Shown here piece after piece: positions 17,559 through 29,107 of a stretch of DNA of 48,595 nt. A program made the translations under genes and the position numbers. The stretch lies in contig JAAETT010000394.1 in NCBI GenBank assembly GCA_024228115.1, positions 1-48,595 of the forward strand, given 5' to 3'. The notes below the pieces were generated by a model. It did no database searches. It was not told the origin of the DNA and worked only from the letters and a program-made list of their open reading frames with translations. The stretch's first letter is position 1; every line of letters begins with the position of its first letter. The DNA comes from a bacterium. GTDB lineage: Bacteria > Myxococcota_A > UBA9160 > UBA6930.

Positions 17559-18809
17559 TTGCCGTTCGGAATCGCGCCGGAAATCCTGCTGGCCGGCACG
17601 CTTGCGCTCTACATGGCGTGGGCGATCGGCGCCAACGACGTGGCCAATGCCATGGGCACGAGCGTCGGCTCGGGCGCGTTGACAATTGCCGGTGCCATCG
17701 TGGTCGCCGGTGTGCTCGAGTTCAGCGGCGCGTTCCTGGCCGGCGGGCATGTCACCGACACGGTCCGCAAGGGAATGCTCGATCTGGATCTGATCTCGAG
17801 CGATCACCTCCGTTATGGCATGTTGGCCGCCCTCGCCTCGGCGGGAACCCTGCTGCTCGGCGCAACCCGGCTCGGACTGCCCGTCTCGACCACCCATTCC
17901 ATCGTCGGCGCGATCGTCGGCTTCGGCACCGTTGCCATCGGGCCCGAGGCCGTGAATTGGGGAAAGGTCGGACAAATCGTCGCGAGCTGGCTGACCTCGC
18001 CGCTGCTCTCCGGCGTTCTGGCTTTCTTCACCTTCCAGATTCTCCGGGCCCTCGTCCTCGACCGCGAAGATCCCGCAAGTCAAGTTCGGCGTGTCGGCCC
18101 GTTCTTCTTCTTCTACGTGTTCTTCATCATCGGCCTCGTCACCCTGTTCAAGGGCCTGAAGAATCTCAGCCTCGACCTCGATCTTCCCCAGGCGATCGGC
18201 GCGTCCGTCGTCCTTGGCCTGGTGGGAATGGCGTTTGGCACCGTGGTGCTGCGGCGGGTCCAGAACCGTCCGGGGAACGCCGAGGACCGGTTCAGCCAGA
18301 CGGAAAAGGTATTCGTCGTCCTTCAGATCCTCACGGCTTGTGCGGTCGCGTTTGCCCACGGCTCCAACGACGTCGCCAACGCCATCGGCCCTCTGGCGGC
18401 CGTCGTCAGCTCGCTCGATGGCGCCACCGAAGTTGCCCGGAAGGCCCCGGTGCAGCCCTGGATGTTGGCCATCGGCGGCCTCGGAATCGTGCTCGGGTTG
18501 GCAACCTGGGGCTACAAGGTCATGGAGACGGTGGGCAAGAAGATCACCGAGCTCACGCCCAGCCGCGGTTTCGCGGCAGAGCTGGCGGCCGCGACCACCA
18601 TCGTCCTGGCCTCGCGTTTGGGCATTCCGGTCTCGACCACACACACCCTCGTGGGGGCTGTGTTGGGTGTCGGCCTGGCTCGTGGCATCGGCGCCATCGA
18701 TATGCGCATCGTCGGACACATCGTCGTGTCGTGGGTGGCGACCCTGCCGATCGCCGCCGGGCTGGCCATCTTCTTCTTCTATTTCTTCAAGGGCTTGCTG
18801 AGCCCGTAA
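17559..18809 (+). CDS. pit: PiT-family inorganic phosphate transporter
   Basis: The 416-aa inner-membrane protein carries the two PiT signature repeats: GANDVANAMGTSVGSGALT (about residues 24-42) and GSNDVANAIGPLAAV in the second half, each followed by a PVSTTHS/TTHT element (GLPVSTTHSIVG and GIPVSTTHTLVG). Around ten hydrophobic segments are visible. The family imports phosphate, probably as metal phosphate with protons. The TTG at 17559 follows GGGGAGGAG. The DUF47 gene begins 10 bp downstream behind a shared AAGGAGG, a standard pairing. Confidence 0.92.
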   Translation: MPFGIAPEILLAGTLALYMAWAIGANDVANAMGTSVGSGALTIAGAIVVAGVLEFSGAFLAGGHVTDTVRKGMLDLDLISSDHLRYGMLAALASAGTLLLGATRLGLPVSTTHSIVGAIVGFGTVAIGPEAVNWGKVGQIVASWLTSPLLSGVLAFFTFQILRALVLDREDPASQVRRVGPFFFFYVFFIIGLVTLFKGLKNLSLDLDLPQAIGASVVLGLVGMAFGTVVLRRVQNRPGNAEDRFSQTEKVFVVLQILTACAVAFAHGSNDVANAIGPLAAVVSSLDGATEVARKAPVQPWMLAIGGLGIVLGLATWGYKVMETVGKKITELTPSRGFAAELAAATTIVLASRLGIPVSTTHTLVGAVLGVGLARGIGAIDMRIVGHIVVSWVATLPIAAGLAIFFFYFFKGLLSP

Positions 18810-18818
18810 GGAGGCGAC

Positions 18819-19487
18819 GTGTCCTGGATCGACAAACTCGTGGGCCGCTCGCCGATTGGCCCGATGCAGAAGCATATGGAGGCTGCTGTCGCCTGCGCCC
18901 GACAGATCGTACCGCTCGTGGAGGCCATGGCGTCCGGTGACCAGGAAGCCGTTCGCCGTTGCCGTGCCGAGATCGACCGGCTCGAACACGAGGCAGATGA
19001 CATCAAGCACGAGATCCGCAGTCATATGCCCCGCCGCCTGATGATGGCCATGGAGCGACGGGACATGCTCGACATCCTCGACCAGCAGGATTCGATCGCC
19101 GACGTCACCCAGGATATCGCCGAGCTGGCGGATCAGCGAAACATGCATCTCCCCGAAGCGCTTGCCGGACCCTTCCGCGAGCTGGCCACGCGGGTCGTGG
19201 CGGCCTGCGAGCAGGGCCAACGGATCATCGACGAACTCGACGAACTGGTCGAGACCGGCTTCGGTGACCGGGAGGTGGCGCGGGTCGAAGAGATGATCGG
19301 CGAGCTCGGCCGCATCGAAACCGACACCGACGTTTTGCAGGACCGTGCCGCGCGCACGCTCTTCGCCATGGAAGACGAACTCGGAATCAGCACCGTCTAT
19401 TGGCACCAGACGATCCTGTGGATCGCGGACCTGGCTGACTACGCCGAGCGGGTCGGCAACCGCCTCCGCTTGCTGATCGCAAGTTAG
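18819..19487 (+). CDS. DUF47/PhoU-like partner of PiT transporter
   Basis: The 222-aa, all-helical, acidic protein is a DUF47 (TIGR00153, PhoU-like) member: helices such as CRAEIDRLEHEADDIKHEIR and MLDILDQQDSIADVTQDIAEL carry the Glu/Asp pattern that binds metals in PhoU-like proteins. The family is thought to modulate the adjacent PiT permease. GTG at 18819 is preceded by AAGGAGG at 18808-18814 and lies 10 bp behind pit, so the genes form an operon. Confidence 0.88.
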   Translation: MSWIDKLVGRSPIGPMQKHMEAAVACARQIVPLVEAMASGDQEAVRRCRAEIDRLEHEADDIKHEIRSHMPRRLMMAMERRDMLDILDQQDSIADVTQDIAELADQRNMHLPEALAGPFRELATRVVAACEQGQRIIDELDELVETGFGDREVARVEEMIGELGRIETDTDVLQDRAARTLFAMEDELGISTVYWHQTILWIADLADYAERVGNRLRLLIAS

Positions 19488-20717: not shown

Positions 20718-21323
20718 GTGCGCACCCCGACCTCAGTCATCGCCCTGTTTCTAGGTCTCCTGCTGACCCTCGGCTGCTCGACGACCCGTATGCTGGAGAG
20801 CTGGAAGGCATCGGACCTGAAGGCCTCGGATCTCCAGTTCGAGCACGTGGTCGCCATCGCGATCGTGAGCAGGGAGTCGCAGCAGCGCATCGTAGAGGAC
20901 GCACTCGTCGCCTCGATGAGCCGCTCCAATGTGATGCCGGCGTACTCCCTTGTGAGCCAGGAGGATCGGGGGAATGTGGACCGGATGCGGGCGGCACTGG
21001 AGGAGCACGGGATGGATGGCGCCGTCACCGTGCGGCTGGTCAACGTCAACGAGAGGGAAACCTACGTTCCTGGCACGACCAGCTACTACGCGGGCGGCTA
21101 CTACGGCCACTACGGCCGCGTGGGCGTCCCCATCTACGACCCGGGTTACTACCGAAGAGACACCTACGTCAAGGTGGAGACCAGCCTGTACAACGTGGCC
21201 AAAGGCAAGCTCCTCTGGAGCGGCGTGAGCGAGACACTGAACCCCTCGCAGGTGGACGGGATGATCCAAGGTATCGTGGAAGCGGCGGGCAAGCGGCTCG
21301 AGAACGACGGGCTGATCCCGTAG
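20718..21323 (+). CDS. Tyr/Gly-rich lipoprotein of unknown function
   Basis: The 201-aa product has a lipoprotein signal peptide with lipobox LTLGC at about residue 20, a mixed alpha/beta domain (VVAIAIVSRESQQRIVEDALVAS), then a Tyr/Gly-rich segment (SYYAGGYYGHYGRVG) in the middle of the domain, and a closing KLLWSGVSETLNPS. The middle recalls small outer-membrane lipoproteins of DUF4136 type, but the match is only by pattern. GTG at 20718 follows AGGAGG at 20705-20710 at 7 bp. The ion channel frame begins right behind it, so the two are probably cotranscribed. Confidence 0.7.
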   Translation: MRTPTSVIALFLGLLLTLGCSTTRMLESWKASDLKASDLQFEHVVAIAIVSRESQQRIVEDALVASMSRSNVMPAYSLVSQEDRGNVDRMRAALEEHGMDGAVTVRLVNVNERETYVPGTTSYYAGGYYGHYGRVGVPIYDPGYYRRDTYVKVETSLYNVAKGKLLWSGVSETLNPSQVDGMIQGIVEAAGKRLENDGLIP

Positions 21324-21406
21324 CGCTTTCCGACAAAGCTGCGGGGCCGACAGCCGGACCTCTCGGGGCCTGGCGGTGGCGGCTGCTCGGCGCTTCGCTG
21401 CTCGCC

Positions 21407-22657
21407 TTGTTGGTGGGCCATGCGACGGTAAACGGTACGGCTCTCGAAGACGCCGTGATGGGCCCGCTAGGGCTCGTCTTCATCGGCGCTCTCGTCTGGG
21501 CGCTCGACCCGCGACGCATTCCGCGAGCGCTGGCCGTACTGCTCGTGGCGCCGATCCTCGTTGGCCTTCTCGGCTTCGAGGAGCGCTGGGCCGCAGCCGC
21601 TGGCTCCTGGTATCACATCCCGCTGTTCCTGGTGGCAACCTGGGCAGTGATCGACCGGGCGGTGCATGCAGAACACGCGGACAAGGACGTGGTGGTGGGC
21701 TCGATCTGTGCCTACCTGCTGGCCGCCATCACCTTTGCCGCGATCTACGCGGGAATCGAGCGCGTCTTGCCCGGCGCGTTCTCGCTAGGTGAGGATGCGG
21801 GAGAGGCGCGGGATTTCGGCCGGCTTCTGTACTTCAGCCTCGTCACGATCACGACCCTGGGCTACGGCGACGTCACCCCCGTGCACCCGCTTGCCCAGAC
21901 GCTGGTATCCCTCGAAGCGGTGCTCGGCATCCTCTACCCGGCGGTCATCGTGGCACGCATCGTCGAGCTGGCAACGCAAGGAAACACGCGCGTCTTCGCA
22001 CCGGCGCCCGCCGCGGGCGAGCGATTCGGCGGCCGCTACCGGCTGCTAGCGCTGCTGCTGGTCGGGACGCTACTCAGCATGCCCTTGATCCAGGCAAGCC
22101 CCTTCGGGGGCTTCGGGCTCGGAGCACTGCTCTTCGTACAGTTGCTCGGCGCCCTCTACGCCACGGGGAGCCGAGGGATCGTTGCCTGGATCGCATGGGG
22201 ACTTGGCGGAATTGCCATGCTAGGCGGCCTCTGGCCCGGAGAGTCGGGCAACCCTGTTGCACGCATGGGACTGGTCGGAGAGGTCGGGTTCTTCCTGGTC
22301 GCAACGGGGGCCCTGGTCAACTGGCTTGCGCGTGAGCGCAACGTCACACGCGAGGTCTTGTTCGCTTCCCTCGCTGCCTACTTGATGTTGGGCTTCTCCC
22401 TGGGCGCATCGTTCCGCCTCGTGGAGTTGTTCCATCCGGGTGCGATCTATTTCCCCGGCGGCGTCTCGGGGGGCAGCCTCGGCCACACCTACTTCGGCTT
22501 CATGACGCTCACGACGACCGGCTTCGGCGAGATCCGGCCCGCCACGCCCATCGCCGAAAGCCTGGCCACCCTCGGAGCGCTGATCGGAACCTTCTACCCG
22601 GCGGTGTTGCTCGCACGGCTCGTCTCCCTGGGCGCATCCCCAGAGCCGAAACCATGA
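21407..22657 (+). CDS. Tandem two-pore ion channel protein (two pore loops in one chain)
   Basis: An integral membrane protein, about 416 aa from the first ATG/GTG/TTG codon, with two similar halves. Each has hydrophobic helices, then helix-pore loop-helix: TITTLGYGDVTP (filter GYGD at 152-155) and TLTTTGFGEIRP (filter GFGE at 372-375). Both are followed by the same motif, LGILYPAVIVARIVELA and IGTFYPAVLLARLVSLG. The first filter is a canonical potassium-type sequence; the second is divergent. One chain would give two of the four pore loops. The start is unclear: the frame is open upstream and a TM segment begins at RLLGASLLALLVG, but no ATG, GTG or TTG lies in frame before 21407, so a CTG start at 21383 or 21398 is possible. 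Confidence 0.75.
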   Translation: MLVGHATVNGTALEDAVMGPLGLVFIGALVWALDPRRIPRALAVLLVAPILVGLLGFEERWAAAAGSWYHIPLFLVATWAVIDRAVHAEHADKDVVVGSICAYLLAAITFAAIYAGIERVLPGAFSLGEDAGEARDFGRLLYFSLVTITTLGYGDVTPVHPLAQTLVSLEAVLGILYPAVIVARIVELATQGNTRVFAPAPAAGERFGGRYRLLALLLVGTLLSMPLIQASPFGGFGLGALLFVQLLGALYATGSRGIVAWIAWGLGGIAMLGGLWPGESGNPVARMGLVGEVGFFLVATGALVNWLARERNVTREVLFASLAAYLMLGFSLGASFRLVELFHPGAIYFPGGVSGGSLGHTYFGFMTLTTTGFGEIRPATPIAESLATLGALIGTFYPAVLLARLVSLGASPEPKP

Positions 22658-22669
22658 GAAGAACCTCCC

Positions 22670-23650
22670 CTACCGGCCGCCCGGTAGGCCGTCGCGAATC
22701 CTGGCGGAGAAGCCGGCGTCGATCGGCGAAGTCTGGGCCCGGGCGGAAATCGCACTGACACGTCGAAGCTCGTCGAAGGGAAGGCTCGTATCGACGGTGC
22801 CCCGCTCGTAGCCGAGCTCGTCGAGGCGGCCGTTCACGAGGATGCGCCAGTCGAACGGCCTGTCTGCCGCCAGATGTTGGACATGGCGACGGATGGTCGT
22901 GGTGCAGTTGTGGCTTGCCGCGTTGTACCAGCGCGGCTGCTGAGCAAGGCGATCGATCGTCTCCAGATAATCGACGAGCAGTGCGCGCGCGGCTTTCGCC
23001 GACGTCTGGAGCCGATACAGGTACACATCCTCCCCCCGATGGTGGGTACGAAGGCCGATCACGTCTCGCTCGTCGGCCACGACGTAGTAGAGCTCGAACT
23101 GGCGGAAGAACCCGAGCACGGCAGAGTAGCTCTCGTCGGCTTCCTTGCGGGTCTCGATGGAAATCGCCAGAGGCGGTCCGTCTTCGAAGGTCCAGCTGAC
23201 GATAGTATGAGCGATCAGCGGTGAGCCCCAATAGATCAGGTAGAAGTCGATCCCCGTGACCTTGGAGAGGTCGATCGTGCGCTCCTCCCAGACCGGATCG
23301 AAGTCCGTCTCACTGCGGAAACGAAAGTTGCGGACGTTCTGGATCGTCGCCCGATCGCCGTCGAAACTCACAGTGGCCGGGTGCGCCACATCGGCGGTCC
23401 AGACCCGATCGTTGCTGGGCTCGAGTGAGCCCCACCAGAAAAGGACCAGCAGGAAGAGCAGCCCGAAGCCAGCGAGGCCGCGCACGGCAGGCCGGACACG
23501 GAGCAGCAGGCCGAGCGACAGCACGACGAAGCCCAGGGCGAGCCCGCCCGCGGCCGGCCGGGACGTGGGGCCATCGAACCATACTGCAGCGCCACCCCAA
23601 AGAATCGCGAGCGCAACCGCTGCGCCGATCAGGATACGTATGAGTCGCAT
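22670..23650 (-). CDS. DUF4105 membrane-anchored periplasmic protein
   Basis: The 326-aa protein has three N-terminal hydrophobic segments (about residues 5-75) and a DUF4105 (Lnb N-terminal-like) periplasmic domain ending in the family signature YNAASHNCTTTIRRHVQHL, with the Cys and Asn of NCTT preserved. The family is thought to be a thiol-hydrolase-like envelope enzyme; the substrate is unknown. The ATG at 23650 is preferred; a TTG at 23662 is an alternative. It ends 13 bp from the channel gene in convergent orientation and diverges from the M48 gene. Confidence 0.8.
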   Translation of the reverse strand: MRLIRILIGAAVALAILWGGAAVWFDGPTSRPAAGGLALGFVVLSLGLLLRVRPAVRGLAGFGLLFLLVLFWWGSLEPSNDRVWTADVAHPATVSFDGDRATIQNVRNFRFRSETDFDPVWEERTIDLSKVTGIDFYLIYWGSPLIAHTIVSWTFEDGPPLAISIETRKEADESYSAVLGFFRQFELYYVVADERDVIGLRTHHRGEDVYLYRLQTSAKAARALLVDYLETIDRLAQQPRWYNAASHNCTTTIRRHVQHLAADRPFDWRILVNGRLDELGYERGTVDTSLPFDELRRVSAISARAQTSPIDAGFSARIRDGLPGGR

Positions 23651-23730
23651 CCGGTGATTCAAGCATACGTGGCTGCAATCGCGAGGGGGAAGCGTACACT
23701 GCGCTACCCCCTCATCAGGAGTGCCCTCGA

Positions 23731-25152
23731 GTGAAGCCCCGGATCGTTCTCATCCTCTTGCTTGCAATGCTCTGCTGGGCCGGCTGCCTCAGCACTTCTC
23801 GAGAGAGCGCCATCGGCGATCAGGAGGCGGAGAAGGCCGAGAAGAGCATGGGGCTGGTCACGGATCCGATCCCGCTCGCCTATGTGCGCAGGATCGGCGA
23901 GCGACTCACCGCGGTCTCCTCGCGGCCGGAAGGGCCCTGGAGTTTCAAGATTGCGGATTCGGAGGAGCCGAACGCCTTCGCCCTGCCGGGAGGCCATGTC
24001 TATGTGACCCGGGGGCTGCTCGCCCTGATCAACTCCGAAGACGAGCTCGCCGGGGTGATCGGTCACGAGATCGGACATGTGACGGCACGCCATAGTGCAA
24101 AGCAGGTGGGAGCCGCCGTGCTGACGGCGCCCGTCACCCTGGCCAGCGCCATCACCGGAATGGCCGTTGGCCTGGTGAGCCCGCTGTTGCGCGATGTCGT
24201 AAAGGGAACCGGACAGCTCGTCACCAAGGGCCTGGTGCTCGCCCCCTTCGGACGGGTGCAGGAAACCAGGGCCGACGAGATCGGCCAGACCCTGGCCGCC
24301 CTGGCAGGCTACGACCCGGCGGGCCTGCCGCGCTTCCTGCATACCCTCGGGCGCGACATCGAGTTGCTGGGGGTCGATGAAAGCCATTTCCACTTCCTGA
24401 ACAACCATCCGATGACAGAAGACCGCGTGGCGAAGACGGGAGCGAGGGCGAAGACATTGACGAGGGGAACGGGCGCTCCTCTGGCACACACGGCGGCGGA
24501 GTTGTTCGCCAAGCTCGATGGGCTGTTGGTCGGCGCCGACCCGGCACAGGGCGTGTTTCGGGAGAGTCTCTTCCTGCATCCGGGCCTCGATCTGGCGATC
24601 GACTTTCCCGAAGGCTGGGAGACCGTAAATACGCCCGAGGCAGCAGGCGCCGTGAATCCTGAGAAGGACGCGGCCGTGGCCCTGCGGCTGGTCGCCGCGG
24701 ACACGACCCTCGATGCAGCGCTGGCAAAGGCCGCGAAAGAGCAGAAAGGCGTCGTGTTCGAACGCAGCAAGATCCGGGGGCTCCCGGCCGCGCGAACCCA
24801 GCATGCATCGGGCGGACACAACGCGGACATCACATTGATCGGCTTCCGTGGAGATGTCTTTGCAATCGTCGGACAGAGTTCGGAGAGGGACGCGAAATCC
24901 CTCGAGCCAATCTTCGAGAAGACCAGTCGCAGCTTTCGGGCGCTACGGTCCAGCGAGCGTGGGTCGATCCGCGAATCGCGCCTGCGCGTGCGCACGTCGC
25001 GCAGTCAGGAAACCGCCAGCAGCCTCGCGAAGCGCACGGGTTCGACCTGGTCGGCCAAGGAGCTGGCGGTGGCGAATGGTGTCGAGTTCGAGGCCCACTT
25101 CTTCAGAGGCCAGAGCGTGAAGGTGGCCGTGCCCGAGCCCTATTCGCGCTGA
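23731..25152 (+). CDS. M48-family metalloprotease lipoprotein (BepA/YfgC-like)
   Basis: The 473-aa lipoprotein (lipobox AGC at about residue 19) is a periplasmic M48 zinc protease. The HExxH is H112-E113-x-x-H116 in VIGHEIGHVTARH; the third ligand is E178 in QETRADEIG. A helical segment between them may hug the membrane. Instead of the TPR domain of BepA, the C-terminal third (about 280-470) resembles a small beta domain that ends with an SH3-like WSAKELAVANG...GQSVKVAVP. BepA-type proteases degrade or assist misfolded outer-membrane proteins. The GTG at 23731 follows AGGAG. Its 3' end overlaps the convergent batD gene by 13 bp. Confidence 0.88.
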   Translation: MKPRIVLILLLAMLCWAGCLSTSRESAIGDQEAEKAEKSMGLVTDPIPLAYVRRIGERLTAVSSRPEGPWSFKIADSEEPNAFALPGGHVYVTRGLLALINSEDELAGVIGHEIGHVTARHSAKQVGAAVLTAPVTLASAITGMAVGLVSPLLRDVVKGTGQLVTKGLVLAPFGRVQETRADEIGQTLAALAGYDPAGLPRFLHTLGRDIELLGVDESHFHFLNNHPMTEDRVAKTGARAKTLTRGTGAPLAHTAAELFAKLDGLLVGADPAQGVFRESLFLHPGLDLAIDFPEGWETVNTPEAAGAVNPEKDAAVALRLVAADTTLDAALAKAAKEQKGVVFERSKIRGLPAARTQHASGGHNADITLIGFRGDVFAIVGQSSERDAKSLEPIFEKTSRSFRALRSSERGSIRESRLRVRTSRSQETASSLAKRTGSTWSAKELAVANGVEFEAHFFRGQSVKVAVPEPYSR

Positions 25153-26513
25153 CTGCGCGGGTTCAGCCCTGAGAAGACGGAGGGTGCGACCTGCGAGCGC
25201 GGCGCGGTGAGTACGGCGGCGCGAAAGGCGTGCAATGCAGGGCGGAGATCCACCGAGCCGGACGATGGCACGGCTACGCTGTAGCGGCCGTGCTCCAACT
25301 GGGCCCAGCATTCCGCGAAGCCCGAGGCCTCGGCTGCCCGGCGGGCAGTCTGATGATTCAGAGACGGCAGCTCGATCGCCAGACGGTCACGCCATCGCCA
25401 GAAGTCTCGAACGAGGGCATCGCCATCTCCGCGCCCTGCACTTCGCATCAGCTCACGAAAGAGCTGGGCTTCCGAACCGCGGCGCCATTCGCGGCGGGCC
25501 CGCCACCCCAGGAGCAGGCCCGGCAAGCGAGTGCGGGCCAGCTGCACCGTGAAGATCACGCCGAGAATCGTCAGCAGGAGCGCCAGGCGGTGTTCTCTGG
25601 TGAATGCCTGCAGACGGTCGAAGCCCGCGCGCCACCGCGTCCAGGGATCGGCCGGTACGACGAGGCTGGCCTGATCCGGTTCGCCTGTCACCTCGAAAGC
25701 GCGATCCTCGAGGATCTCGGTCTGGAGCGCTCCAGAACCAGGGTCCCACCAATGCAGCTCGATCGCTGGCAATGCGAATTCGCCGGGGCGTTGCAGCACA
25801 TAGGTGACACTCTCCACACGCTCGCCCTGGTACTGCCCGCGGTTGACCTGATCGGAGGTGCGCGGTTGGTCGGCGTAGACGGCAATGCCCGGTGGCACTT
25901 CGAAAACCAGATCGGGCAGCAACATTCCAAGAGCACGATCGGCGTTCATCCTCACCGTCCGCTTCACAGCATCCCCGACCATCAACGCGTCGAGAGGCCG
26001 GCTCCATTCGTCGCGCACGCGGAAGCGCGGAGTGGTGACCAGGCCTTGGATCCCTTCCGCCTCGGCCGGGATCACGACGTTCAAGCGCAGGGGTGGCGTG
26101 CGCAGGGTGAAGGGTGTTCCCGCCTTCCCGTCGCCGCCTGCGATTCCGAGCCGGATCTTCAGCGAAGGGATTTCCAGCCTGCCCGCTCGCTGCGGGAAGA
26201 TCACGTAGCTGCGGCGCTGGGCCGCGAAGCTGACGCCGTCGATGCGCTCGGTGAAGTTGGTGCCGAGCTGCTCGGGCATCAAGGCGACGGCGCCTTCCAG
26301 AACGAGTTCCGGGTAGGCGGGGGCCTTGCTGAACCAGGTGTCGGTCAGGATGTCGATGAAGAAGCGGGTCTGCTGACCGATCACCACCTGGCGGGCCGGT
26401 TCCGTGCTGACCCTCACGCGGAGGCGACCCTCGTTCATCAACTCGCGAGGCGTCTGCGCGTCGGCCAACATCGGGACAACGAGGACGAGCGCGACCAGGA
26501 GTACGCGCTTCAC
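25140..26513 (-). CDS. batD: BatD family protein
   Basis: The 457-aa protein has a signal peptide (VLLVALVLVVPMLADAQ), a large periplasmic beta-rich region with Ig-like repeats (YVIFPQRAGRLEIPSLKIRL, YVLQRPGEFALPAIELHWWD), one transmembrane helix (LALLLTILGVIFTVQLA) and a cytoplasmic C-terminal tail. This is the BatD (oxygen-tolerance/aerotolerance) architecture. BatD works with the BatA/BatB VWA proteins and a MoxR ATPase in a membrane complex. GTG at 26513 overlaps the stop of the TPR gene by 4 bp (GTGA). It is the last gene of the locus. Confidence 0.85.
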   Translation of the reverse strand: MKRVLLVALVLVVPMLADAQTPRELMNEGRLRVRVSTEPARQVVIGQQTRFFIDILTDTWFSKAPAYPELVLEGAVALMPEQLGTNFTERIDGVSFAAQRRSYVIFPQRAGRLEIPSLKIRLGIAGGDGKAGTPFTLRTPPLRLNVVIPAEAEGIQGLVTTPRFRVRDEWSRPLDALMVGDAVKRTVRMNADRALGMLLPDLVFEVPPGIAVYADQPRTSDQVNRGQYQGERVESVTYVLQRPGEFALPAIELHWWDPGSGALQTEILEDRAFEVTGEPDQASLVVPADPWTRWRAGFDRLQAFTREHRLALLLTILGVIFTVQLARTRLPGLLLGWRARREWRRGSEAQLFRELMRSAGRGDGDALVRDFWRWRDRLAIELPSLNHQTARRAAEASGFAECWAQLEHGRYSVAVPSSGSVDLRPALHAFRAAVLTAPRSQVAPSVFSGLNPRSQRE

Positions 26514-27130
26514 GGCGCACTCCCTGTCGGATCTTCTACCTGGTCTTGATAGGAGAACTTGAGCCTCAGGAAATCAGCGGGTGTCGTCTGTACCCGACGC
26601 ATCCACATCTCGCGCAGCTGGGCCTCACTCAGACCCTGGGCGCGTGCTTCTTCGGAAGTCATCTCGCCTTTGCCCTTGGCGCCCTTTTCGTCGAAGACGA
26701 TCTTGTCCGCCTCGAGCTTGCCACCGGTACCCCCCGCGTCCTCGTACTCCTTCTGGTCGAGTTCGAGCAGGCTCTGGACCCAGTCGAGATTGAAGGCCGC
26801 CTCGGGGAACTCGGGCTGGAGAACCAACGCACGCCGATAGGCAGAGATCGCTTCGGGCAGTCGCTCCTGACGAGCCAGGGCATTGCCGTACTGGAATTCT
26901 CCGCGCGCCGTATCCAGCACCGCCAGGGCAGACGCCGCCGAGGCCATGTCCTCGGCTTCATAGTAGGCGAGCCCCTTCCACAGACGATCCTCGAAGCTTC
27001 GGGCGGCCCGCAGCGGCTCACCTCGCTCGAGCCACAATCGGCCTTGCTGGTCGGGCGTCAGGAACCAATCCAGGGAAGGAGAACATGCGGTCCCCCCGAG
27101 CAGGAGCAGCACCACGGCAAGCCTCGTCAT
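26510..27130 (-). CDS. TPR lipoprotein, BatC/BatE-like
   Basis: The 206-aa protein starts with a lipobox (LLLLGGTAC), then tetratricopeptide-like helices (AISAYRRALVLQPEFPEAAFNLDWV) and an acidic, charged tail that ends in a membrane-proximal motif (SEAQLREMWMRRVQTTPADFLRLKF). TPR adaptors occupy this slot in Bat operons and are proposed to scaffold the VWA proteins. The ATG at 27130 overlaps the batB stop (ATGA), supporting this start over the upstream ATGs. Confidence 0.8.
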   Translation of the reverse strand: MTRLAVVLLLLGGTACSPSLDWFLTPDQQGRLWLERGEPLRAARSFEDRLWKGLAYYEAEDMASAASALAVLDTARGEFQYGNALARQERLPEAISAYRRALVLQPEFPEAAFNLDWVQSLLELDQKEYEDAGGTGGKLEADKIVFDEKGAKGKGEMTSEEARAQGLSEAQLREMWMRRVQTTPADFLRLKFSYQDQVEDPTGSAP

Positions 27131-28125
27131 ACCCGCCATTGCACCGTCCATCCACGCCGGAACCAGAACAGCATGCAGAAGGCGACCGCCCAGGCCAACG
27201 GATACCCCGCATCGTGCCAGGCGAGGGCCTCATCGCTGTCGATCGTATCCACCAGATGAGTTCGGATTCGGCGGCTCAGGGCCGTGACATCAGCTTCGTC
27301 CAGGGTGGCCTCGAGCAGGCTTCCGCCCACAGCCGTCGCGATGGCCTCGAGACCCGCGTGGTCGACCGGCGGTGCAAGCCGGTCGCTCGCAGGCAACGAG
27401 GAAAGGTCGAGACCCTCGGTCGCGATCTCTCCTCCCTCCGGCCCGCCGAAGGCCAGCAGGATCACCTGGTCGCCCGTGCGCTGCGCAAAGCCACCGAAGG
27501 CATCGGCGGCGCTTCGCTCGATCCCGTCGCTCAGGAACAGAACGGTGCCAGCGACGCTTTCGCCCGCCAGCAGTCGCTCGGCCAGGGTGAGAGCCTGGGT
27601 CGGGGCGTCGCCCGGCTGTGGCATCAGGTTCGGATGCAAGGCCTCCAGGTAGACCTCGAGCAGCTCCGTATCATCGGTAAAGGGCAACAGCTGGTGGGCG
27701 CTGCCGGCATAGCCGATCACCGCCGTTCGTGCGCCGCGGCGCCGCTTCAGCAGATCGCGCACCTTGTGGCGGGCGCGCTCCAGGCGGGTGGGCTGTTGGT
27801 CCGTGCCCAACATACTGGGGGTGAGCTCGATGGCGATCACGAGCGGAGCCTCGTCCTGGGTGAAGGGCGTGATCTCACGATTCCAGGTCGGACCGGCAAC
27901 GCCGAGAGACATCAGCACGGTGAGCAGCGTCATCAGCTGGTAGGGACGGATCGGCTTGCGCCCCCGTCCTGCGACCGTCAGATGCTCGAGCAGCTTCGGC
28001 GCGATGGCACCCTGCCATTGGAGCGTCGCGCTGTAGGCGCGGCGCAGACGTGTATGAAGCCAAAGGGCGTAGGGAATGAAGATCAGCCACCAGGGACGCA
28101 GGAAGTGAAAATCCAGATCAAGCAC
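27127..28125 (-). CDS. batB: BatB-like VWA-domain inner-membrane protein
   Basis: The 332-aa protein has two N-terminal membrane segments (RPWWLIFIPYALWLH, YQLMTLLTVLMSLGVAG), a VWA domain and a C-terminal anchor (LAWAVAFCMLFWFRRGW). The MIDAS signature, normally DxSxS, reads IELTPSM (E100, T102, S104), so two of the three metal-coordinating positions are conservatively changed. The typical BatB continuation TDQQPTRLERARHKVRDLL follows. GTG at 28125 overlaps the batA stop by 8 bp; GGGAG lies upstream. Confidence 0.87.
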   Translation of the reverse strand: MLDLDFHFLRPWWLIFIPYALWLHTRLRRAYSATLQWQGAIAPKLLEHLTVAGRGRKPIRPYQLMTLLTVLMSLGVAGPTWNREITPFTQDEAPLVIAIELTPSMLGTDQQPTRLERARHKVRDLLKRRRGARTAVIGYAGSAHQLLPFTDDTELLEVYLEALHPNLMPQPGDAPTQALTLAERLLAGESVAGTVLFLSDGIERSAADAFGGFAQRTGDQVILLAFGGPEGGEIATEGLDLSSLPASDRLAPPVDHAGLEAIATAVGGSLLEATLDEADVTALSRRIRTHLVDTIDSDEALAWHDAGYPLAWAVAFCMLFWFRRGWTVQWRV

Positions 28126-29107
28126 GACTTGGCGCTCCCACACCGGGCAGGCGCAGCATCGCATTGAACAACACGACACCGAAGATCAGCAGGCTCCCTA
28201 GCGGAACCCAGTAGAGTGCCCGCTTCGGTCGGTAGCTCTGGGTGTCGACCTTCTCTGGTTCGAGCTGGTCGAGCTCGGCGTAGACAGCCTCGAGCTGCTC
28301 GCGATCCAGCGCCAGAAAGGATCGGCCCCCGGTAGCCCCGCTGACACCCTCGAGTGCATCCGTATCCAACGCCTTCTCACCGACCGTGGCTGGATCGCCC
28401 ATCGCGATGGTGTGGATCGTAATTCCCTCTTCGCCCGCGATCTCCGCGGCGCGGTGCACGGGCATCTTGCTGCCGGAGTCGTTGCCGTCGGTCAGCAGGA
28501 TCACGACCTTGTTCTGCTTCTCACTGGCCTCGAACAGACGAACCGCCAGACCGATGGCATCACCGATCATCGTCTGGGCACCGGCCATCCGCGGCTGCAT
28601 CTCCTCCAGAAGCGAGCCGACCACCTCGCGGTCGTCGGTGAAGGGTGCCTGAAGGAACGCCGACTGGCCGAATACCGCCAGGCCCAAACGGTCGGTTTCA
28701 CGGCGGGCAATGAAGCCCGCGACCACTTCCTTCACGGCTTCCAGCCGGGTGATGCGCAACGCATCGGAGCCCGAGAAATCCTTCTCCTCCATCGATCCCG
28801 AGAGATCCACGATCAGCAGCAGATCCCGGGCGGGAAGCTCCTTCACGATCGGCTCGCCCACCCAGACAGGCCGGGCGAGCGCGGTCACGATGAGGAACCA
28901 GCCGATGATGTGATAGAGCTTCTGCCAGTTTCGCTTGCGGATGACGACCGCGCCTGCGGTCGGAAGCTTGCCGGTCAGCTCGACGAGTCGCTTGAAGAAG
29001 GGTGCGCGCACCGCCTCGCTCTCGTCATGGAACTCGGGCGCCAGCCAGATGACGAGTAGCGGCAACGGCAGCAACGCGAAGGCCCAGGGCAACTCAAATG
29101 CGAGCAT
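28118..29107 (-). CDS. batA: BatA-like VWA-domain inner-membrane protein
   Basis: The 329-aa protein has an N-terminal helix (FALLPLPLLVIWLA), a second near KLYHIIGWFLIVTALA, a VWA domain with an intact MIDAS D101-L-S103-G-S105 (IVDLSGSMEEKD) and the Thr/Asp loops (AQTMIGDAIG, LLTDGNDSG), and a C-terminal anchor (LGSLLIFGVVLFNAML). VWA domains bind metal and protein partners; with MoxR these are proposed to act as chaperone-like complexes. The ATG at 29107 overlaps the DUF4381 gene by 14 bp. Confidence 0.9.
   Translation of the reverse strand: MLAFELPWAFALLPLPLLVIWLAPEFHDESEAVRAPFFKRLVELTGKLPTAGAVVIRKRNWQKLYHIIGWFLIVTALARPVWVGEPIVKELPARDLLLIVDLSGSMEEKDFSGSDALRITRLEAVKEVVAGFIARRETDRLGLAVFGQSAFLQAPFTDDREVVGSLLEEMQPRMAGAQTMIGDAIGLAVRLFEASEKQNKVVILLTDGNDSGSKMPVHRAAEIAGEEGITIHTIAMGDPATVGEKALDTDALEGVSGATGGRSFLALDREQLEAVYAELDQLEPEKVDTQSYRPKRALYWVPLGSLLIFGVVLFNAMLRLPGVGAPSRA

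Follow-up and report, generated by a model that had tools for sequence, protein, structure and literature searches.

In contig JAAETT010000394.1, whose 48,595 nucleotides were analysed as a whole (hereafter the window), we found a gene encoding two channel units in a single chain (table 1). BLASTP aligned 124 residues of the two halves at 33% identity (E 4e-21), and one shared profile, which has the window's halves among its source sequences, scored 268 and 255 bits against them. Both also matched Ion_trans_2 (PF07885) above the curated cut-off of 22.5 bits, half 1 with 54.8 bits and half 2 with 27.7 bits. AlphaFold2 (AF2) models and the sequences revealed the same order in each half, that is, helix, pore helix, TxG[YF]G filter and helix, with TTLGYGD and TTTGFGE spaced by exactly 220 residues and each followed by an S6 motif (LYPAVIVARIVELA and FYPAVLLARLVSLG) that matches between the halves. 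A first-pass annotation of this DNA had described two homologous halves with filters at that spacing and matching motifs after both, and these results bear it out; it had also asked for a comparison of the halves, which match in sequence and in modelled layout. The resemblance is not due to chance: two channel units were indeed duplicated within the gene or fused to make it.

Table 1. Features of the tandem channel gene in the window, and the split tandem of genome G065
Feature	Position	Strand	Basis or remark
Tandem channel gene	21407..22657	+	TTG at 21407 is the start given by the first-pass annotation; frame open through 22657
Repeat 1, S1-S6 and pore loop	21368..21976	+	AF2 full-length model; PF07885 match
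Repeat 1 helices			AF2 residues 2-21, 26-47, 54-68, 84-100, 107-134, 147-162 (pore helix), 175-204
Pore helix 1	21803..21850	+	AF2 model residues 147-162
Selectivity filter 1, TTLGYGD	21851..21871	+	Sequence; TTLG[YF]GD in 7/7 first halves
Inter-repeat linker, about 19 residues	21977..22033	+	AF2 pLDDT < 50 at residues 207-220
Repeat 2, S1'-S6' and pore loop	22034..22636	+	AF2 full-length residues 224-424; repeat 2 modelled alone
Pore helix 2	22475..22510	+	AF2 full-length residues 371-382; also in repeat 2-only model
Selectivity filter 2, TTTGFGE	22511..22531	+	Sequence; second halves have TTTGYGD (5/7) or TTTGFGE (2/7)
Split tandem (L013 / L121 / L157)	G065:C8, about 226269-227542

The frame and the end of the gene at 22657 stand as first annotated, but its start probably lies upstream of the proposed TTG, around 21362-21383, either at the CTG at 21383 or at another codon after about 21362. 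Such a start is suggested by homology and by the changes relative to the 81%-identical ortholog, and helix S1 would then be complete; the TTG at 21407, the first fitting ATG, GTG or TTG of the frame, falls inside this helix. The stretch AWR[WF]RLLGASLLALL, located 5' of 21407, is conserved in orthologs, and an in-frame TTG in L009/L037 gives MEPWRFRLLG. Over the 12-15 codons 5' of 21407 the dN/dS against the 81%-identical ortholog is 0.26-0.41, a figure based on only 5-6 changes, which is weakly consistent with coding sequence. Before the conserved S1 start, neither the window nor the closest ortholog has an ATG, GTG or TTG, and the sole table 11 alternative start there, in both members of the genus, is CTG. 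Initiation by CTG, translational coupling or some other mechanism are all possible. In this region (window 21323-21413) the channel gene overlaps or comes directly after the stop codon (21321-21323) of an upstream gene for a secreted or lipoprotein-like product, which is read in another frame.

The AF2 model of repeat 2, computed with 35 relatives, reached a pLDDT of 92.3 and a pTM of 0.88 and contains a pore helix and the filter in addition to six long helices. The second filter region, which the first-pass annotation had presented as a pore loop, is folded as such in the model (mean pLDDT 92). The full-length model, computed with four fused sequences (pLDDT 74.1, pTM 0.79), is of moderate confidence and predicts twice the set of six helices plus pore helix, with no cytosolic domain in its layout. 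No arginine ladder was found in the S4-equivalents, where Arg and Lys are not regularly spaced, number 1-4 per 32 residues and lie mostly at the cytosolic end.

Foldseek searches with both models returned weak matches only and none at E <= 0.001. After realignment, the pore of repeat 2 matched Kir and KirBac structures with Z 12-13 and an rmsd of about 2 A over 95-100 residues; such a Z is borderline where proteins are helical, but the matched proteins have the filter motif in common as well. Repeat 1 matched hERG, Eag and AKT1 with Z about 10.6 and an rmsd of 5-6 A, and its best PDB sequence match was KirBac / Kir. The KirBac / Kir pore domain resembles repeat 2 in structure and repeat 1 in sequence, but the window protein has no cytosolic Kir domain, possesses the additional S1-S4 helices and carries two pores per chain. 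There were no TPC or K2P chains among the realignment matches listed, which does not count as evidence against them.

We found the tandem in seven of the 80 genomes of one Myxococcota order, intact in six and split by a frame change in one, and no further tandems turned up in 379 genomes of the phylum. The intact fused orthologs, distributed over three families of this order, are those of G003 (81% identity), G010 (60%), G048 (40%), G013 (35%) and G049 (31%); the records of three tandems (L037, L038 and L039) are derived from MAGs. Of the other four genomes in the window's genus, three lack a full-length tandem match (MAGs 82-93% complete), and such a patchy distribution suggests that the tandem channel is dispensable. 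The tandem channels of G010 (L009) and G013 (L012), two species placed in genus g7, are only about 35% identical to each other. They appear to have diverged more than expected from simple vertical descent, as old paralogs or horizontally transferred genes might.

When the single protein was used as a query, no close relatives were recovered from genome contigs and viral contigs, whereas a query with the alignment did find relatives. Only three fused loci, all of them orthologs listed above, were among the best 80 genome-contig matches. Single-copy relatives of 210-250 aa occur in Myxococcota, Pseudomonadota, Thermodesulfobacteriota, Acidobacteriota, Cyanobacteriota, Planctomycetota and others, and the profile built from the halves matches them along almost all of the profile's own length, which makes the whole 6TM unit homologous. 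The tandem is built from a bacterial Ion_trans_2 protein of about 220 aa that is widespread as a single copy. That one pore per chain is usual among its relatives, as had been proposed, agrees with the 92 single-copy sequences against seven fused ones in the set examined.

In a tree of 70 sequences, the seven first halves were placed opposite the seven second halves across one branch (100/97; 100% of bootstrap trees), and the branching inside the first-half clade nearly parallels that of the second-half clade. Separate clades with parallel branching are what one fusion event would leave behind if both halves were inherited together from then on, so that the fusion of these tandems arose once, with the halves diverging afterwards. 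We left out an alignment in which fused proteins were combined with single ones, L038 being misplaced in it. As to what preceded the fusion, the AU test of the halves as each other's sisters gave p 0.46, and L034, a single-copy protein from the same class, is joined to half 2 in the tree (96/87); the halves may stem from duplication in place or from fusion of two paralogs. Relative to G003, half 1 had a dN/dS of 0.22 and the linker plus half 2 one of 0.27, and both halves are maintained by purifying selection.

In G065 the two halves are adjacent but in different frames, with the shift inside the linker and the second half without a clear start. The frame change may be real, the halves being made as separate proteins in a natural split version of the tandem, or it may be a sequencing error. 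It could also be cited for the view that the tandem arose as an artefact of assembly or through a recent and neutral fusion of genes, to which we attach practically no probability: the fused gene is intact in six independent genomes, with identities as low as 30%, the clades of both halves indicate a single origin, and both halves are under purifying selection. The orthologs refute this explanation.

The filters of all 14 halves are of the K+ type, TT[LT]G[YF]G[DE]. First halves carry TTLGYGD in six cases and TTLGFGD in one, and second halves carry TTTGYGD in five, the two exceptions with TTTGFGE being members of the window's genus. Two differences between the halves are fixed (7/7 versus 7/7), that is, Leu in half 1 against Thr in half 2 before GYG and, five residues upstream, Val against Met. 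Among the 92 single-copy sequences, TTTGYGD occurs in 14, a filter with Phe in 16 and TTLGFGE in one. From these comparisons the GFGE filter is a minor and recent change at the level of the genus, and the Leu/Thr asymmetry is older and conserved. The literal filter GFGE had no match in the literature searched. The first-pass annotation took filter 2 to deviate from the K+ signature. A departure from K+ selectivity is not supported, as half 2 has TTTGYGD in five of the seven tandems, no tandem outside the window's genus carries GFGE, and single-copy relatives show TTTGYGD, GFGD and GFGE alike.

A loss of K+ selectivity by pore 2, which would make the channel non-selective or Na+-permeable, is what the Thr fixed before GYG in repeat 2 could suggest. 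TWIK1 resembles the window protein in having a Thr before GYG in one filter; this residue (T118, in the first filter signature) is needed for the acid-induced Na+ permeability of TWIK1, and the T118I mutant is locked in the K+-selective form (PMC11079055). We take the parallel with the Thr of repeat 2 as a lead. TWIK1 is nevertheless K+-selective at neutral pH, G-[YF]-G is intact in every half of the tandems, and the TTTGYGD and GFGE filters of single-copy relatives also argue against such a loss, which we regard as unlikely. Since distant orthologs keep GYGD and one single-copy relative has GFGE, the filter sequences do not indicate that K+ selectivity was lost.

The pore of repeat 2 evolves slightly faster than that of repeat 1 (dN/dS 0.37 versus 0.24), and the GFGE change affects repeat 2 and the window's genus only. 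Both facts would fit repeat 2 being a regulatory or structural partner with a pore-like fold, in a complex that is non-conducting or acts as an ion-sensing membrane scaffold. We hold this to be quite improbable, as the filter is intact in orthologs down to 30% identity and repeat 2 is modelled as an ordinary pore.

Each half resembles the bacterial single-repeat Ion_trans_2 proteins of about 220-250 aa (e.g., L041, L045, L083 and L108) in family, filters and type of S6 motif; those proteins, however, have one pore per chain, with four chains expected per channel, and the window protein has two pores. TPCs are endolysosomal cation channels of the voltage-gated superfamily and are not known to carry the K+ GYG filter. 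They share 2 x 6TM in one chain with the window protein, which differs by its K+ type filters, its 19-residue linker and the lack of an arginine-bearing S4. TPC membership is ruled out by the GYG-type filters and the S4 without arginine ladder. K2P chains have four TM helices, in the layout M1-P1-M2-M3-P2-M4, and K2P membership is ruled out by the 12 membrane helices modelled for the window protein. TPC1 and TPC2 are dimers of 2 x 6TM chains with an asymmetric pore (PMC5150636), and K2P channels, notably TWIK1, are dimers with two pore loops per chain (PMC11079055).

Two-repeat 6TM K+ channel homologues have also been described in dinoflagellates, oomycetes and chlorarachniophytes, their first and second repeats forming separate clades (PMC7576140). 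These eukaryotic tandem Kv-like channels have 2 x 6TM and a K+ filter in common with the window protein, and their repeats have diverged to 30% identity or less, but they carry S4 charges in voltage sensors, whereas the window protein lacks an arginine ladder and comes from a bacterial family. Its architecture resembles that of eukaryotic TPC and tandem Kv channels, with a separate origin from the bacterial family. No published example of a bacterial two-repeat K+ channel was found in the literature searched, which excluded most subscription journals. The suggestion of an unusual or undescribed family thus stands for the fused architecture, which is unusual and has no bacterial description in that literature, but not for the halves, as both belong to PF07885 and to the widespread bacterial family of 6TM single-pore proteins. 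What appears to be new is the fused architecture; the channel family itself is known.

We consider it likely that the tandem is a fused dimer of the common bacterial six-helix, one-pore K+ channel subunit, forming a voltage-insensitive, dimeric (pseudo-tetrameric) channel. A dimer is proposed because the two-pore TPC and K2P chains assemble as dimers, and by this analogy dimeric assembly is plausible. Each chain would supply two of the four pore segments, with two chains per channel, so that the segments would be ordered 1-2-1-2 around the pore with twofold instead of fourfold symmetry. The two pore segments have diverged in a fixed way, the residue before GYG being Leu in the first repeat but Thr in the second. 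Conduction, gating and physiological role are what we infer from this architecture. As S1-S4 are present but the S4-equivalent has no arginine ladder, K+ conduction without voltage sensing would be expected, and the absence of a cytosolic ligand domain would place gating in the filter or make it membrane-responsive. The most likely role, proposed with low confidence, would be a background K+ conductance helping to set membrane potential and K+ balance. More tentatively, and with some doubt, the tandem might be the first recognised natural bacterial 2 x 6TM K+ channel, an independent prokaryotic counterpart of the step from four identical to two fused and diverged subunits that preceded the TPC-like channels of eukaryotes, in which the conserved Leu/Thr asymmetry leads to a TWIK1-like, condition-dependent selectivity. 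Tandem fusion of channel subunits has been seen as the step that enabled asymmetric eukaryotic pores, in TPC and then in the four-repeat Na+ and Ca2+ channels (PMC5150636). With a simple, sensorless family as its source and single-copy relatives still living, the bacterial tandem would be a small natural model for studying the effects of fusion and filter divergence on selectivity and gating.

No neighbour common to all six genomes was found around the tandem gene, and the surroundings gave no consistent clue to its role. An M48 peptidase gene lies within a few kb in three genomes, all from family f1, and an Lnb_N gene is on the opposite strand in two. The latter encodes a membrane protein with an Lnb_N domain and, in two genera, converges on the gene of the tandem channel (window 22670-23662 and L153:10439-11434, both on the minus strand). 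Upstream in the window (17625-19487), a PHO4 phosphate transporter followed by PhoU_div (DUF47) makes up an ordinary Pit-type phosphate uptake pair. On the other side, at 25140-29107 of the minus strand, a BatD-like protein and its same-strand neighbours probably form a Bat-type cluster, which is highly conserved in G003.
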